Made by a program: the position numbers and the translations under genes. A model generated the notes under the pieces. That model saw only the letters and a program-made list of their open reading frames with translations, was not told the DNA's origin and did not search any database. This document shows, in pieces, positions 93-5,556 of a stretch of 5,595 nt of DNA (the stretch's first letter is position 1; every line of letters starts with the position of its first letter). The stretch is from Nitrospirota bacterium (GTDB lineage Bacteria > UBA2233), in the NCBI GenBank assembly GCA_011620345.1, contig WOZJ01000034.1:1-5595 (forward strand). Reading direction: 5' to 3'.

Positions 93-368
93 TCATGGCA
101 GCAAAAATCCGTTCAAAACGAGCGGGTTTTGGGGTGCGTTGACATCCAAAAAAGGCGTAAGGAGCACGTCGTCAACGTAGTAAACGAGCCACTCGGCAAA
201 AGGTATATAGTCCATGCTCGGGATGAGCAGGCCATTCAATAGCGTATCGAGGCCGGTGCCGATCAGGTTGGCTGAATCCAATATGGAGCTGAAGCTTGCC
301 TGGATGAGGCTGCCCGAAGCCCCGAGGATGCTTGTCAGCGCCTGGCCGGATGCCGTGAAGACCTCCAT
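93..368 (-). CDS. Unrecognised 91-residue acidic hydrophobic protein, no basic residues
   Basis: I do not recognise this protein. It has 91 residues, eight acidic (E2, D31, D41, D53, E59, D66, D67, D75) and no Lys, Arg, His or Cys; 18 residues are leucine. Residues 1-49 are rich in Ser, Gly, Ala and Leu and could form amphipathic helices. After P50, residues 56-74 are hydrophobic and aromatic around an acidic pair (D66-D67). The tail is Pro/Asn/Leu-rich and ends in LNGFLLP. There is no signal peptide with a basic N-region, no prepilin G-F-T-x-x-E site and no clear membrane span with flanking positive charges. It is probably real: AGGAG lies 5 nt before the ATG, it follows pilC by 32 bp on the same strand, its codon use resembles its neighbours, and no competing gene overlaps it. 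Its place behind pilBTC suggests co-transcription. A role in pilus function or at the cell surface is only inference. Confidence 0.72.
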   Translation of the reverse strand: MEVFTASGQALTSILGASGSLIQASFSSILDSANLIGTGLDTLLNGLLIPSMDYIPFAEWLVYYVDDVLLTPFLDVNAPQNPLVLNGFLLP

Positions 369-373
369 GCGTG

Positions 374-380
374 CTCCTTT
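374..380 (-). promoter_or_regulatory. Strong Shine-Dalgarno of the 91-residue gene
   Basis: AAAGGAG on the minus strand ends 5 nt before the ATG at 368 and follows an A-rich stretch (AATAAAAAA). It is clearly stronger than the sites ahead of pilC (AGGA at 10 nt) or pilB (AGGA at 13 nt). It fixes the start of the small gene and suggests that the protein is made in greater amount than the pilus motor proteins. Confidence 0.7.
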
Positions 381-410
381 TTTATTAGCCTTGGTTTTTA
401 TTAGCCTTGG
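379..410. repeat. Perfect 16-bp tandem duplication across the pilC stop codon
   Basis: On the plus strand, 379-394 and 395-410 are identical (TTTTTATTAGCCTTGG). Read on the minus strand, each unit is CCAAGGCTAATAAAAA. The first unit holds the last codons and TAA stop of pilC; the second repeats them as non-coding spacer and runs straight into AGGAG of the next gene. It looks like a slippage or unequal-exchange duplication that lengthened the intercistronic spacer. Confidence 0.9.
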
Positions 411-1630
411 ATTTGGCTCACCAACTCGCCCACCTTGAAAAGCGGCATGTATATAGAAATGAGGATGAACCCGATGATTCCGCCCATGCCCAAGAGTAGG
501 GCGGGCTCCAAAAGGCTCAACATCGTCTCGATCGCGCTTTCCGTCTCGGACTCGTAGTAGACGTTTATCTTTTGGAGCATTTGATCGAGCGTGCCCGACA
601 TCTCGCCCGCCGCCACCATTTGAACAACCATTCCTGGGAAATGCGGGTCCTTCCCCATCGAAGCGGCTATAGATTCACCTTGGCGTACGCTTTCGGCCAC
701 TCCCAGAATCGCGTCTTTTAACGCGAGGTTGGGGATGGCCCGTGAGCTTGTCTCGAAGCAGCGCATGACGGGCAGGCCGCAGACCAAAAGCGTCCCGAAC
801 GTGTCGGCAAAGCGTGCCAGGCCGGATTTGTGCGCAACGGGCCCGATGGCCGGAAGCTTCAAGGCGAGCCTATGCCAAGCCCGCTTGATACGGGGCACTT
901 TCATGAGCGCGTAGGCCATAACGACAAGCCAGACGAGCACGGCCGCCGAGATGAACGCGTGGTCTCTTAGAGCATGGCTTGCGCCGAGCATAAACTTGGT
1001 GGTCGGGGGCAGGATCGTCACAAAGTCCTTGAACGTGGCCTCGAAGTTCGGGATTACCCAAAGGAGGAACAACAAGATCACACCAAAAGATAAGACGGCC
1101 AGCACGCTCGGGTAAACGATCGCCCCGCGGATCCTGCGCTTGATGGCGATCGCCTTTTCGATGTGGGTGGCCAGCCTGCCTAGTACCCTGCCTAAAATAC
1201 CAGAGCTCTCGCCCGCCTCTACGGTCCCCACGTAGACCTCGTCGAACACTTTGGGATGGGCCCCGAGCGCGTCATGGAGGCTCGCGCCTCCCTCGACCTC
1301 GGCGATGATGTCGGATAGGATCTTGGCGAAGTAAGGGTTGCGCTCTTCTTTCCTGAGCGTGCCAAGCGCGGTCAGAAGCGGCAATCCCGCCTCGATCATG
1401 GCCGCGAGCTGACGGGTGAAGGCAAGTAACTCTTTTGCCTTAACCCGTCCTTTCAAGAAGGGAATGCGGATCTCTCTTTTGAGGAGGCTTGGCTTTTTTT
1501 CCTTGAGCCCTACCAAAAGGAGGCGTTCGTTGTACATCCAGGCCTTGGCGGCCGCCTCGGAGCCTGCCTCGAGGGTCCCATGCTTGAGCTCCCCTTCCTT
1601 CGTCCTTGCGGTGTAGGCGTATACCGGCAT
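401..1630 (-). CDS. pilC: Type IV pilus inner-membrane platform protein PilC (GspF family)
   Basis: This 409-residue polytopic inner-membrane protein sits above the PilB/PilT hexamers and transmits their movement to the pilus base. It starts with the family signature MPVYAYTARTKEGELKHGTLEA. Two T2SSF repeats are visible: GLPLLTALGTL (82-92) with VEAGESSGILGRVLGRL (137-153) in the first, and GLPVMRCFETSS (285-296) with VAAGEMSGTLDQMLQKI (339-355) in the second. Hydrophobic membrane segments lie at about 170-192, 226-244 and 375-397, matching the usual three-helix layout, and the length is normal (about 400). The C-terminus ISIYMPLFKVGELVSQIQG is typical. The start is preceded by AGGA at 10 nt, 21 bp after pilT. 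The TAA stop lies inside a 16-bp tandem duplication. GspF of a secretion system is the alternative; PilT next door favours PilC. Confidence 0.95.
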   Translation of the reverse strand: MPVYAYTARTKEGELKHGTLEAGSEAAAKAWMYNERLLLVGLKEKKPSLLKREIRIPFLKGRVKAKELLAFTRQLAAMIEAGLPLLTALGTLRKEERNPYFAKILSDIIAEVEGGASLHDALGAHPKVFDEVYVGTVEAGESSGILGRVLGRLATHIEKAIAIKRRIRGAIVYPSVLAVLSFGVILLFLLWVIPNFEATFKDFVTILPPTTKFMLGASHALRDHAFISAAVLVWLVVMAYALMKVPRIKRAWHRLALKLPAIGPVAHKSGLARFADTFGTLLVCGLPVMRCFETSSRAIPNLALKDAILGVAESVRQGESIAASMGKDPHFPGMVVQMVAAGEMSGTLDQMLQKINVYYESETESAIETMLSLLEPALLLGMGGIIGFILISIYMPLFKVGELVSQIQG

Positions 1631-1651: not shown

Positions 1652-2773
1652 TTAGGACGGCCGGCCCCGAAGAATCGGGCCGTTGTTTTTTGCATTCTTG
1701 AAAAGCTGGAAAGCCCGGTAGAATTCTTCTGTGTCGGAGGCGGCGTACAATGCATCCTCTTCGGAGATCGTGCCCTTTGCGAAGGCCTCGGCGAGCATTT
1801 GGCTCATCGTGACCATCCGGGTTTTTTCCTGGCCCATCTGCATTTGGGAGTAGATCTGGTGGGTCTTGCCCTCCCGGATCAAGTTGCGGACGGCCGGAGT
1901 GGCTATGAGGAACTCGTAGACCATGACCCTGCCTCCGCCTACCTTGGGCAGGAGCCTTTGACAAAGGACGGCGTCGAGGACGAAAGAGAGCTGGGTCCGC
2001 ACCTGGGCTTGCTGGTGAGGCGGGAAGACGTCGATAATGCGGTTAATCGTCTGGACGGCCGAGTTGGTGTGCAGCGTAGAGAATACCATATGCCCCGTCT
2101 CGGCGATGTGCAGCGCGGCCTCGATGCTCTCCAAATCACGCATCTCGCCGATCAGAACGACGTCCGGATCCTCGCGCAGCACGCTCCTTAGCGCCCTTTG
2201 GAAGCTCACGGAGTCTTGACCAATCTCGCGCTGGTTGACGACGGAGCGCCTATGGCGGTGGAGGTACTCTATGGGGTCTTCGATCGTGACGATATGCGCG
2301 CTCTTGGCTTGATTGATGGCGTCGATCATCGAAGCAAGCGTCGTCGACTTCCCTGACCCCGTCGGCCCGGTCACAAGGATAAACCCCTGGGGCTTTAGAG
2401 TCAGCTCCTCTAAGGCTTGGGGCAGCCCAAGGGCGCGAAGCGGCCAAGGCTCGTAGGGAATGAGCCGGATCGCCAGCGCAAGCGAGCCTCGTTGATGGTA
2501 GGCGTTGACACGAAACCTGCCGACGCCTTCAATGCCGAAGGAAAAATCGACCTCCATTTGGGTAGTGAGGGCTTCCCATTTACCGGGGGCATTCACGATG
2601 TCCTTGGCGATAAGCTCGATTTGGGGGGGGGTCAAGGGTGTATATCCTTCAACCTCCAAAAGTGTCCCGTCCACGCGGACCATCGGGGGTACGCCCACGG
2701 TCAGGTGAAGGTCTGAGCCTTTCTTGTCGGCGAGGATCTCTAGGAGGCTTCGTATCGCGATGTCCATGCTCAT
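1652..2773 (-). CDS. pilT: Type IV pilus retraction ATPase PilT
   Basis: This 373-residue cytoplasmic hexameric ATPase drives pilus disassembly and so twitching motility and DNA or phage uptake. The N-terminus is typical: LLEILADKKGSDLHLTVGVPPMVRVDG. The ATPase core has Walker A GPTGSGKS (136-143), the Asp box TIEDPIEY (163-170), VNQREIGQD (179-187), Walker B DPDVVLIGEMRD (202-213) and the His box TGHMVFSTLHTN (226-237). The PilT-specific motif PAVRNLIREGKTHQIYS (293-309), which contains the AIRNLIRE-type helix needed for retraction, separates it from PilB. No cysteine zinc motif is present, as expected. The frame stays open upstream to 2992 inside pilB, but that part is unlike PilT. The ATG at 2773 overlaps the pilB stop as ATGA and begins a normal PilT N-terminus; M3 at 2767 is an alternative. 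No strong SD is visible, so coupling to pilB translation is likely. A nine-C tract occupies codons 48-51. Confidence 0.96.
   Translation of the reverse strand: MSMDIAIRSLLEILADKKGSDLHLTVGVPPMVRVDGTLLEVEGYTPLTPPQIELIAKDIVNAPGKWEALTTQMEVDFSFGIEGVGRFRVNAYHQRGSLALAIRLIPYEPWPLRALGLPQALEELTLKPQGFILVTGPTGSGKSTTLASMIDAINQAKSAHIVTIEDPIEYLHRHRRSVVNQREIGQDSVSFQRALRSVLREDPDVVLIGEMRDLESIEAALHIAETGHMVFSTLHTNSAVQTINRIIDVFPPHQQAQVRTQLSFVLDAVLCQRLLPKVGGGRVMVYEFLIATPAVRNLIREGKTHQIYSQMQMGQEKTRMVTMSQMLAEAFAKGTISEEDALYAASDTEEFYRAFQLFKNAKNNGPILRGRPS
1662..1691 (+). terminator. Terminator-like hairpin plus T-tract, antisense to the operon
   Basis: On the plus strand CGGCC (1662-1666) pairs with GGCCG (1678-1682), and CGA (1668-1670) pairs with TCG (1675-1677), with C1667 bulged and an AGAA loop. 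TTGTTTTTT (1683-1691) follows, which is the form of a Rho-independent terminator. It faces against the genes, at the 3' end of pilT. On the minus strand the same hairpin has no T-tract, so it should not end the pil transcript, although it could mark an RNA-processing or pausing point between pilT and pilC. Confidence 0.4.
2623..2631 (-). repeat. Nine-C homopolymer inside pilT (possible slippage tract)
   Basis: Nine consecutive G's on the plus strand read as C9 in pilT, within ACC CCC CCC CAA (T48, P49, P50, Q51). Loss of one C gives TGA at codon 60; gain of one gives TAA at codon 65. Both are far upstream of the Walker A motif. Tracts of this kind are known substrates for slipped-strand mispairing, but variability is not shown here. 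Confidence 0.6.
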
Positions 2774-4572
2774 CGGTCCGGCATGGTGGATGCGGTGACT
2801 TCTTCGATGCTCGTGAGGCCCGCCTTGGCCTTTTCGAGCCCCATCTGCCTCAGCGTTCGCATTCCGAACCGTCTTGCCTCGCGCTTGACCTCCGTAATAG
2901 GCGCCCGCTCCAAGAACATTTCCCGGATCTCGTCGTTGACGGCGAACACCTCGAAAATCCCTACCCTGCCCAAATACCCTGTATTGAAGCACTTTGGGCA
3001 GCCTTTTGGGCCGAACAGGTTAACGTCTGGAATATCCTTGGGGTCGAACCCCACCTGGATCAGCGCCTTGGAGGGAGGCTTGAGCGGAACCTTGCAATGG
3101 GGACACAGCTTTCTTAGGAGCCGTTGGGCCATTGTTAAAACGACCGAAGAGGCGACTAGGTAGGGCTCTACGTTCATGTTGGTCAGCCTTGCGAGCGCGG
3201 AAGGGGCGTCGTTGGTGTGCAACGTAGAAAGGAGGAGATGGCCCGTGAGGGAGGCCTTGATGGCAATGTCGGCCGTTTCGAAGTCCCGAATTTCGCCCAC
3301 AAGGATAATATCCGGGTCTTGGCGCAGGAACGACCGGATAGCGGAGGCGAACGTTAATTCGATCTCTTCGCGGATCTGCATTTGGTTGATGCCGGGCAAG
3401 TCGAACTCGATCGGGTCCTCGACCGTCATGATGTTGACGGATTCCTTGTTGAGCTCGATGAGCATGCTGTAGAGTGTCGTGGTCTTTCCCGAGCCCGTCG
3501 GGCCGGTCACGAGCACCATCCCTTGAGGGGCGTGGATCGCATGCATTACGGAATCGAGCTCGTCTTGCTCCATGCCGAGCCTTCGGACATCGATCTGGAG
3601 GGCCGCCTTGTCGAGCAGCCGAAGGACGGCTTTTTCTCCGAAGAACGTGGGGACGATGCTCACGCGGATGTCGATGATCCTGCCGGGGCCGAGCGCGTAG
3701 TGGATTCTCCCGTCCTGGGGGAGTCGTTTTTCGGCGATGTCGAGCTGGCTTAAGATCTTGATGCGCGAAACTACCGAACCCGTGATTGGCACAGGAAACG
3801 AGAACGCCTTAACGAGCTTGCCATCGAGCCTGTAGCGCACGCGGAACGTGTCCTCGAAAGGTTCGAAGTGGATATCCGAGGCCCCTGCGGCGATTGCTTT
3901 TCTCAACACGTAATCGACAATGTTGACGACCGCATCGTCCGTTTTTTGCTGGCCTACTGGCAAAACCGCCGCGGCTGGCTTGCGCTGGGATTCGCGCGCT
4001 TCCATGAGTGCCGTGTTGACAAAAATATCGAGGTTTGTGTCGCTTTCTTCGAACCGCCAGATACCCTTGGGTTCTGCATTGAAACGCTCGCGGGTGTAGT
4101 CCCTTAGCTGGATTGGTGGCTTGACGGCAGACTCTTCTTTGAGCGACGGGTAGAGCGCTTCACGACCGGCCCGAACCTGGCTAAAGGTGGCCACGAGCGG
4201 GCGAAAATGGTAATCCGTGGCAAACTCGAGGTCTTTTAGCGTACCGAGAGCCTCGATGTCGGCGACGAGCATCCAGATATCCCGGCCCTCTCTCTTGAGC
4301 GGGACGATGTAGGGGTTGTTCTTAATCAGCTCAGGAGGCAGCATGGTTGAAAGGGAAGCATCCGGGGTGAGGCCGGCTTGTTGCGCCCTTGGCGCGTGGC
4401 TTATTTCGGCCAGAAACGCCGCAAGCTGTTCTTCGCTCGTTTCCCCCAGCGTCAAGACGTGCTCCAAGAGGCTCCCGCCCTTGTGACGTACAAGCCACTC
4501 GGCCTGGCGTACGGCAAGCTCCGAAGCGAGGCCCTTGGAGATCAGCAAATATCCCAAGTCTTTGGTTTGCAT
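2770..4572 (-). CDS. pilB: Type IV pilus extension ATPase PilB (GspE family)
   Basis: This 600-residue cytoplasmic hexameric ATPase powers pilin polymerisation through PilC. Residues 1-140 look like the MshEN/T2SSE N-terminal region: LGYLLISKGL, then GETSEEQLAAFLAE, then LPPELIKNNPYIVPLKREG. A variable linker follows to about 210. The N2 domain (about 211-345) contains GASDIHFEP and RYRLDGKL. The C-terminal ATPase has Walker A GPTGSGKT (357-364), the Asp box TVEDPIEF (383-390), Walker B DPDIILVGEIRD (419-430) and the His box LTGHLLLSTLHTND (442-455). Four cysteines (C490, C493, C525, C528) in CPHC and CPKC form the zinc site typical of PilB/GspE. The ATG is the first possible start, because a TAG lies in frame 18 bases upstream; its SD (AGGA, 13 nt away) is weak. 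The TGA stop overlaps the pilT ATG. GspE is the alternative name, but the adjacent pilT favours a pilus role. Confidence 0.95.
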   Translation of the reverse strand: MQTKDLGYLLISKGLASELAVRQAEWLVRHKGGSLLEHVLTLGETSEEQLAAFLAEISHAPRAQQAGLTPDASLSTMLPPELIKNNPYIVPLKREGRDIWMLVADIEALGTLKDLEFATDYHFRPLVATFSQVRAGREALYPSLKEESAVKPPIQLRDYTRERFNAEPKGIWRFEESDTNLDIFVNTALMEARESQRKPAAAVLPVGQQKTDDAVVNIVDYVLRKAIAAGASDIHFEPFEDTFRVRYRLDGKLVKAFSFPVPITGSVVSRIKILSQLDIAEKRLPQDGRIHYALGPGRIIDIRVSIVPTFFGEKAVLRLLDKAALQIDVRRLGMEQDELDSVMHAIHAPQGMVLVTGPTGSGKTTTLYSMLIELNKESVNIMTVEDPIEFDLPGINQMQIREEIELTFASAIRSFLRQDPDIILVGEIRDFETADIAIKASLTGHLLLSTLHTNDAPSALARLTNMNVEPYLVASSVVLTMAQRLLRKLCPHCKVPLKPPSKALIQVGFDPKDIPDVNLFGPKGCPKCFNTGYLGRVGIFEVFAVNDEIREMFLERAPITEVKREARRFGMRTLRQMGLEKAKAGLTSIEEVTASTMPDR

Positions 4573-4671: not shown

Positions 4672-5556
4672 CTAGAGAGCCTTCCTGACGCGCTTTTCGA
4701 GCGCTTCTAAAAGGAGCCGAGGATTTTTTTCGACCTTTTTTCCAAAAAACAGCCAGAAGGCCAAGAGCCCCTGGAACAGGAGCATGGGGAGGCCATTTTG
4801 AATACTCGCCCCGGCCCGCTTGGCCGCCTTGAGGAATGGGGTCAACGGGGGGTGATAGACCAAATCGACGGCCCGGACGGGACGGGACGGATTCCTTGGA
4901 AAGCGGATGTCCAGCCTGCCTCCCCCCATTTCGGCCGAAGCAGCCTGAACGATCCAATCGAACCTCCTCACAAACCCGGGCTCAAGGAGCACGTCTAAAG
5001 GATGGGCCTCTATGATCGTTGGGCCAAGGGCGCTCGCGGCCTCTTTGAGCAACCTGGCACGCTCGAGCGTTCGGTTGGCGATCACAAGAACTCCTGGTCT
5101 TTGCCTTATGAGCCCGCAAGTGACTGCTCGGGCCGCCCCGCCGGCTCCAATGACCAAGATGCGTGACCCCTCGATCGTCGCCCCTCCAAACCCGAAAGCC
5201 AGCGCAGACATGAACCCTTGGGCATCCGTGTTGTGGCCAAGATAGCCCCCACCCACAAGCCGGACGACAGTATTCACGGCCCCGATTGTACGGGCTTCAT
5301 GGCTTAGGACGTCCAGGTGCTCGAGCATGCGTTCTTTGTAAGGGACGGTTACGTTGAACCCGTCGACCCCTAGCTCGTATAGGCCCTCGATTGCCTTCGA
5401 AAACCGCTCCGATGGAACTTCAAACGGGACATAGGAGCCTTTTTCGTGGGCAAGCTCCATGAAGAAGCCCTGCATCCACGGGGAGAGCGATGCGGACACG
5501 GCGCTGCCCAAGATGCCAAGAAACCTGGGTGGAAGGGCGGGCTTTATCCGTGACAA
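4672..5556 (-). CDS. aroE: Shikimate dehydrogenase (NADP+), AroE
   Basis: This 294-residue cytosolic enzyme reduces 3-dehydroshikimate to shikimate with NADPH in the chorismate pathway. Its length is slightly above the usual 270-290. The N-terminal substrate domain shows the SxS shikimate-binding serines (S23, S25 in SLSP), NVTVPYK with catalytic K74, GAVNT (N95) and HNTD with catalytic D111. The NADP domain has the glycine-rich loop GAGGAARA at 137-144 and NRT at 161-163. DLVYHPPLTPFL (231-242) and the late GLPMLLFQG block with Q262 complete the family pattern. The usual NATSxGM segment reads QAASAEM (204-210), an unusual variant. The start is TTG: a TAA lies in frame six bases upstream, no ATG occurs before residue 28, and GGAT sits 5 nt (or GGTAGG 11 nt) ahead. 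It is the first gene of the block and is separated from pilB by 99 bp. Identity is firm; dedication to shikimate rather than quinate is inferred. Confidence 0.95.
   Translation of the reverse strand: MSRIKPALPPRFLGILGSAVSASLSPWMQGFFMELAHEKGSYVPFEVPSERFSKAIEGLYELGVDGFNVTVPYKERMLEHLDVLSHEARTIGAVNTVVRLVGGGYLGHNTDAQGFMSALAFGFGGATIEGSRILVIGAGGAARAVTCGLIRQRPGVLVIANRTLERARLLKEAASALGPTIIEAHPLDVLLEPGFVRRFDWIVQAASAEMGGGRLDIRFPRNPSRPVRAVDLVYHPPLTPFLKAAKRAGASIQNGLPMLLFQGLLAFWLFFGKKVEKNPRLLLEALEKRVRKAL

Follow-up and report, generated by a model that had tools for sequence, protein, structure and literature searches.

A small protein without basic residues encoded behind pilC in the UBA2233 lineage

Accessory parts of type IV pili are badly sampled outside the model phyla. 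Spc of Geobacter sulfurreducens is a small pilus-locus protein with a proposed role in stabilizing PilA (PMC10232502). TfpY/FimB-like proteins, which have three transmembrane helices and a periplasmic domain, are pilin-specific helpers of pilus assembly (PMC11841053), and EbsA, restricted to cyanobacteria, binds PilB and partners the pilus motor (PMC8092324). Myxobacterial clusters contain pilR/pilS and pilGHI (PMC6060248).

Here we describe an open reading frame (ORF) of 91 amino acids (aa) at a pilus locus of the GTDB phylum UBA2233 ("Ca. Cutipiota"), for which a published survey lists two genomes, 1.8-1.89 Mb in size, that came from oil-contaminated soil and a tailings pond (PMC11382960). 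The window, that is, the whole stretch of DNA analyzed, is one entire contig (C56, 5595 bp) of a 1.80-Mb genome that is 97% complete. Among the genomes searched, the only relative in the genus was Nitrospirae bacterium UBA2233 (hereafter UBA2233), with the locus on DDYN01000057.1, and all of the other genomes were no closer to the window's genome than the same domain.

The pilus locus and its continuation in UBA2233

All of the genes in the window (aroE, pilB, pilT, pilC, and the 91-aa ORF) lie on the minus strand (Table 1), and the annotations of PilC, PilT, PilB, and AroE were confirmed with Pfam and NCBIfam profiles. The ORF had been placed directly behind pilC in an earlier note on this DNA, and this was correct: the distance from the pilC stop to the ORF start is 32 nucleotides (nt) in the window versus 15 nt in UBA2233, and it is a 16-nt duplication that stretches this gap from 15 to 32 nt. 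The same note had placed the ORF at the end of a type IV pilus operon, which proved to be an artifact, because the contig merely ends there. In UBA2233, the gene order is aroE-pilB-pilT-pilC-ORF-pilA (N_methyl)-298-aa protein-ABC ATPase-ABC permease-prepilin peptidase, and the cluster continues into pilA and beyond. The 91-aa ORF is the next gene upstream of pilA there and adjoins the pilin gene, and no terminator-like site in the ORF's own direction was found between the two. The UBA2233 pilA is an ORF of 229 codons that encodes a full-length pilin matching N_methyl. In the window's genome, pilA falls in an assembly gap, with C56 stopping before pilA and C52 starting at the next gene.

Table 1. 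Features of the window, with coordinates, strand, and evidence
Feature	Position	Strand	Evidence or remark
91-aa ORF, acidic and basic-free	93..368	-	ORF reading, codon usage, UBA2233 comparison
Residues 62-91 and stop, invariant C-terminal tail, one synonymous change	93..185	-	two-species comparison
Residues 3-48, amphipathic helical segment; fast sequence, hydrophobic pattern kept	225..362	-	moment, replacements, AlphaFold
Shine-Dalgarno (SD) AGGAG, 5 nt 5' of ATG; same in UBA2233	374..378	-	sequence reading and alignment
Perfect 16-nt tandem duplication at pilC stop; single copy in UBA2233	379..410	.	alignment
pilC, type IV pilus platform protein	401..1630	-	PF00482 4.6e-59; Myxococcus-type PilC and GspF models match, each below cut-off
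pilT, retraction ATPase	1652..2767	-	TIGR01420 460.8 bits, above cut-off of 319.1
pilB, assembly ATPase with MshEN domain	2770..4572	-	PF00437 5.1e-131; PF05157; TIGR02538 614 bits, below cut-off of 675.65
aroE, shikimate dehydrogenase	4672..5556	-	PF08501 1.1e-24

Further observations were made at this locus and elsewhere in the window's genome. The absence of pilA (L013:7611-8404 in UBA2233) from the window's assembly (window 1) may result from differences in the pilin among strains of the source population. The 298-aa protein (L013:8403-9299) occupies the place of Myxococcus pilG, directly before the ABC transporter pair, and it had no Pfam or NCBIfam match. A second pilC-like gene in the window's genome probably belongs to type II secretion, because it adjoins a pseudopilin-like gene; the two are 56 nt apart, and there is therefore no room for an ORF of this kind.

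Gene character, composition, and conservation

The 91-aa ORF is a real, previously undescribed gene, since its codon usage matches that of the genome's own genes. Its codon score was 0.200; pieces of long genes cut to 91 codons averaged 0.204 +/- 0.083 and shadow ORFs averaged -0.043 +/- 0.144, with 97% of the shadow ORFs scoring below the 91-aa ORF. In each genome, and in each part of the ORF, the true frame outscored the other five, while the G+C content by codon position (0.55/0.38/0.71) tracked that of pilC (0.58/0.41/0.75). No described small protein behind pilC was found in the literature.

The product starts at an ATG; Lys, Arg, His, and Cys are all absent from it, and its acidic residues are 6 Asp and 2 Glu. 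Its net charge is -8, and the counts agree with the eight acidic and zero basic residues given originally. Such a composition had also been called rare, and the scan of 506,980 bases of the same genome agreed: of the 79 predicted genes and the 797 mechanical ORFs of 80-120 aa, not one was free of K, R, and H, so that the composition is truly unusual in its own genome. The nearest composition in these 507 kb had one basic residue. Within the same 507 kb, the closest match in composition was a pair of neighboring predicted proteins (121 and 99 aa; L095:17199-17900); both have hardly any basic residues and appear to carry signal peptides, and by eye neither is related to the 91-aa protein.

Residues 3-48 form a continuous and significant amphipathic-helix pattern, in which the hydrophobic moment at 100 degrees is 0.313, a value that 0 of 1000 shuffles attained, and the best period is 99 degrees. 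The profile searches and structure prediction proposed earlier gave no family match and an AlphaFold helix at residues 3-48, which is weak because of its low confidence (pLDDT 56) and the two sequences behind it. The two species share the C-terminal tail, YYVDDVLLTPFLDVNAPQNPLVLNGFLLP, without a single difference. Despite its overall hydrophobic character (GRAVY of 0.74, and 0.68 in UBA2233), the protein has no predicted transmembrane segment, since the best 19-residue Kyte-Doolittle mean was only 1.13-1.15. Prepilin and Sec features had been reported as lacking, and indeed there is neither a prepilin motif nor a signal peptide, and no basic residue of the kind the latter would need; a double-glycine leader or export route was not seen either. 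Identity as a type IV pilin or prepilin, whose N terminus should carry a class III signal (basic leader, G/A, F-T-L-x-E) and a hydrophobic helix, was rejected on the missing basic residue and the lack of any N_methyl or NCBIfam match up to E 1. The protein showed no similarity to the UBA2233 pilA product, which does match N_methyl in the same kind of test.

A homologue behind pilC that is likewise basic-free, for which the earlier note suggested looking in related genomes, was found in the one relative. The UBA2233 orthologue has the same place and length, is 84% identical, lacks basic residues, and has a charge of -8; its start, SD, length, and stop are kept, with 0 indels inside the ORF and indels present on both sides. 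No homologue was found by profile searches against Pfam, NCBIfam, PHROGs, and the PDB, and no credible one in 386 diverse genomes, among which the genus mate was the positive control, or in 249 genomes of three other phyla (47 + 7 + 195). The few weak matches in these genome searches were short and partial, and most fell in frames that were themselves short or interrupted. No match came from plasmids, phages, or viral contigs, and a phage or plasmid small protein was rejected because neither these nor PHROGs held relatives. The window's genome contains no second copy of the conserved block elsewhere, and a basic-free small ORF behind pilC was present at 0 of 28 other pilC loci. As far as tested, the gene is an orphan of the UBA2233 lineage within the databases and genomes searched.

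The constraint on the ORF could be measured once, because only two sequences exist in total. They differ at 29 nucleotides, with 15 replacements, which gives a dN/dS of 0.62 (Nei-Gojobori) versus 0.14-0.19 for aroE, pilB, pilT, and pilC; allowing for the ratio of 21 transitions to 8 transversions, the value is about 0.9, as an estimate from site fractions. A dN/dS near 1 had been named earlier as counting against the finding, and in aggregate the ORF comes close to it. However, the aggregate value misleads, since it averages over an invariant last third and a first two-thirds in which the hydrophobic pattern is kept. From codon 63 to the end there are 0 nonsynonymous changes and 1 synonymous change (for a last third with this few changes, P = 6e-5). 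All 15 replacements fall within the first 62 codons and 14 of them keep the hydrophobic/polar class, while neutral simulation yielded a mean of 7 class switches (P about 0.001 for <=1); thus, selection on the fast part acts on pattern and not on sequence. In the last third the DNA is conserved as a whole, so substitutions alone do not separate constraint on the protein from constraint on the DNA there.

With respect to charge, two acidic residues (D41 and D53) disappeared and two others (D13 and D46) arose, or the changes ran the other way, and the net charge is -8 in both species. Under neutral simulation, the absence of any basic residue after 15 replacements had a P value of 0.02-0.07. Selection on charge, as suggested from the single sequence, is therefore plausible: the charge stays at -8, but 2-7% of neutral simulations also end without any basic residue. 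The evidence for selection directed against basic residues in particular is only suggestive.

Possible functions of the 91-aa protein

Our preferred reading, to which we give a probability of roughly 0.38 with the proposed mechanism included, is that the ORF encodes an accessory protein of the type IV pilus, restricted to this lineage and produced along with PilB, PilT, and PilC. A pilus-linked accessory factor was one of three guesses in the earlier note and is the best of them, the evidence for it being position and conservation. In its favor are the same position, length, and charge in UBA2233, the location between pilC and pilA without a terminator-like site before pilA, the second pilC-like gene with no room for such an ORF, the gene-like codons, the invariant last 30 codons, the class kept in 14 of 15 replacements, the helical amphipathicity, and the precedent of lineage-specific pilus factors such as EbsA and Spc. 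Against it, position is the sole link to the pilus, a comparable ORF is absent from 28 other pilC loci, the constraint comes from two sequences, the AlphaFold model has a pLDDT of 56, and the DNA of the last third is conserved as a whole. Mechanistically, the invariant tail would dock on a conserved partner, either PilC or, in the pilin whose gene follows, the N-terminal helix, while the acidic amphipathic stretch would cover a hydrophobic surface or self-associate. As an outcome, the pilin or the platform would stay competent for assembly, an action comparable to that of Spc, the pilin chaperone of Geobacter, or of EbsA, which partners PilB in cyanobacteria, although without descent from either.

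If it is a pilus factor, the protein would be one more lineage-restricted part of a machine with a universal core and a rare natural case of a folded or membrane-active protein without any positive charge. The gene is, moreover, a clear and testable marker for a phylum with two genomes. It is a genuine orphan and not an exotic system, and the finding is real but modest.

It is somewhat unlikely, in our estimate, that this real small protein has a role unrelated to the pilus and that only chance or regulation puts it on the shared transcript. Orphan genes of small size are frequent, and this one has no known domain and is tied to the pilus by position alone, whereas the placement behind pilC with short spacing has been kept in both species.

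An exported or outer-membrane-associated acidic amphipathic peptide, like PorA/PorH or the acidic pore-forming microcins, and located behind pilC through co-regulation for surface life, is distinctly unlikely. To our knowledge, a mycolate envelope is neither known nor expected in phylum UBA2233, and we know of no counterpart of the invariant hydrophobic C-terminal tail among PorA/PorH-type peptides or microcins; the absence of an export route, a double-glycine leader, and a family match also argues against such a peptide. On the other hand, the protein is acidic, hydrophobic, amphipathic, and without a presequence, and PorA/PorH-type proteins are short, have no presequence, and have an export mechanism that is yet to be identified (PMC3792995). 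A phylum-specific pilus component of a new kind, in which an all-acidic amphipathic helix and an invariant hydrophobic tail would serve as a pilin chaperone or as a pilus-delivered extracellular membrane-active protein, we regard as quite improbable.

A small regulator of pilus expression, standing in place of the pilS/pilR found between pilC and pilA of Myxococcus, is very unlikely. The cluster pilB-pilT-pilC-x-pilA-(298 aa)-ABC ATPase-ABC permease-pilD does resemble the Myxococcus order, and a kinase or regulator pair is absent from this position. However, the protein has no DNA-binding domain and no basic residue for nucleic acid contact, and, since both genomes have several sigma-54 activators elsewhere, PilR may simply have moved. 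We regard as hardly credible a conserved 3' block that acts as a DNA or RNA element for pilA within an untranslated frame: about 100 nt are conserved with one change, including 8 nt past the stop, but codon usage is gene-like in both parts of the frame, the hydrophobic class is kept in the fast part, conservation drops soon after the stop, and an RNA element was rejected on nonsignificant folding (z of -0.91 to 0.47) and the absence of an Rfam match.

Comparison with known systems

In Myxococcus, pilS and pilR lie between pilC and pilA, which is where UBA2233 carries the 91-aa ORF. The UBA2233 cluster resembles the Myxococcus one, which contains pilGHI and pilD. PorA and PorH form an acidic amphipathic helix. 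They share with the 91-aa protein a short length and the lack of a presequence (PMC3792995). They are, however, mycomembrane proteins of the actinobacterial Corynebacteriales with about 40-57 residues, and no sequence relation to the 91-aa protein was found.

Genes for TfpY/FimB-like proteins are linked to the pilin gene. These proteins have about 235-245 residues and three transmembrane helices, whereas the product described here has 91 residues and no predicted transmembrane helix; on this length and the low Kyte-Doolittle means, identity with them was rejected. EbsA is a phylum-restricted type IV pilus accessory protein, the role proposed here for the 91-aa protein, but it has an alpha+beta roll fold, while the 91-aa protein is predicted to be helical; the latter had no Pfam, NCBIfam, or PDB sequence match. 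Spc is likewise a small protein of a type IV pilus locus whose gene adjoins the pilin gene, as the ORF does in UBA2233. The Spc gene lies after pilA and serves a truncated pilin, in contrast to the 91-aa ORF, which lies between pilC and pilA next to the gene for a full-length pilin. Overall, in the best-supported reading, the 91-aa protein would resemble EbsA, Spc, and the TfpY-like proteins in its proposed role and not by descent.
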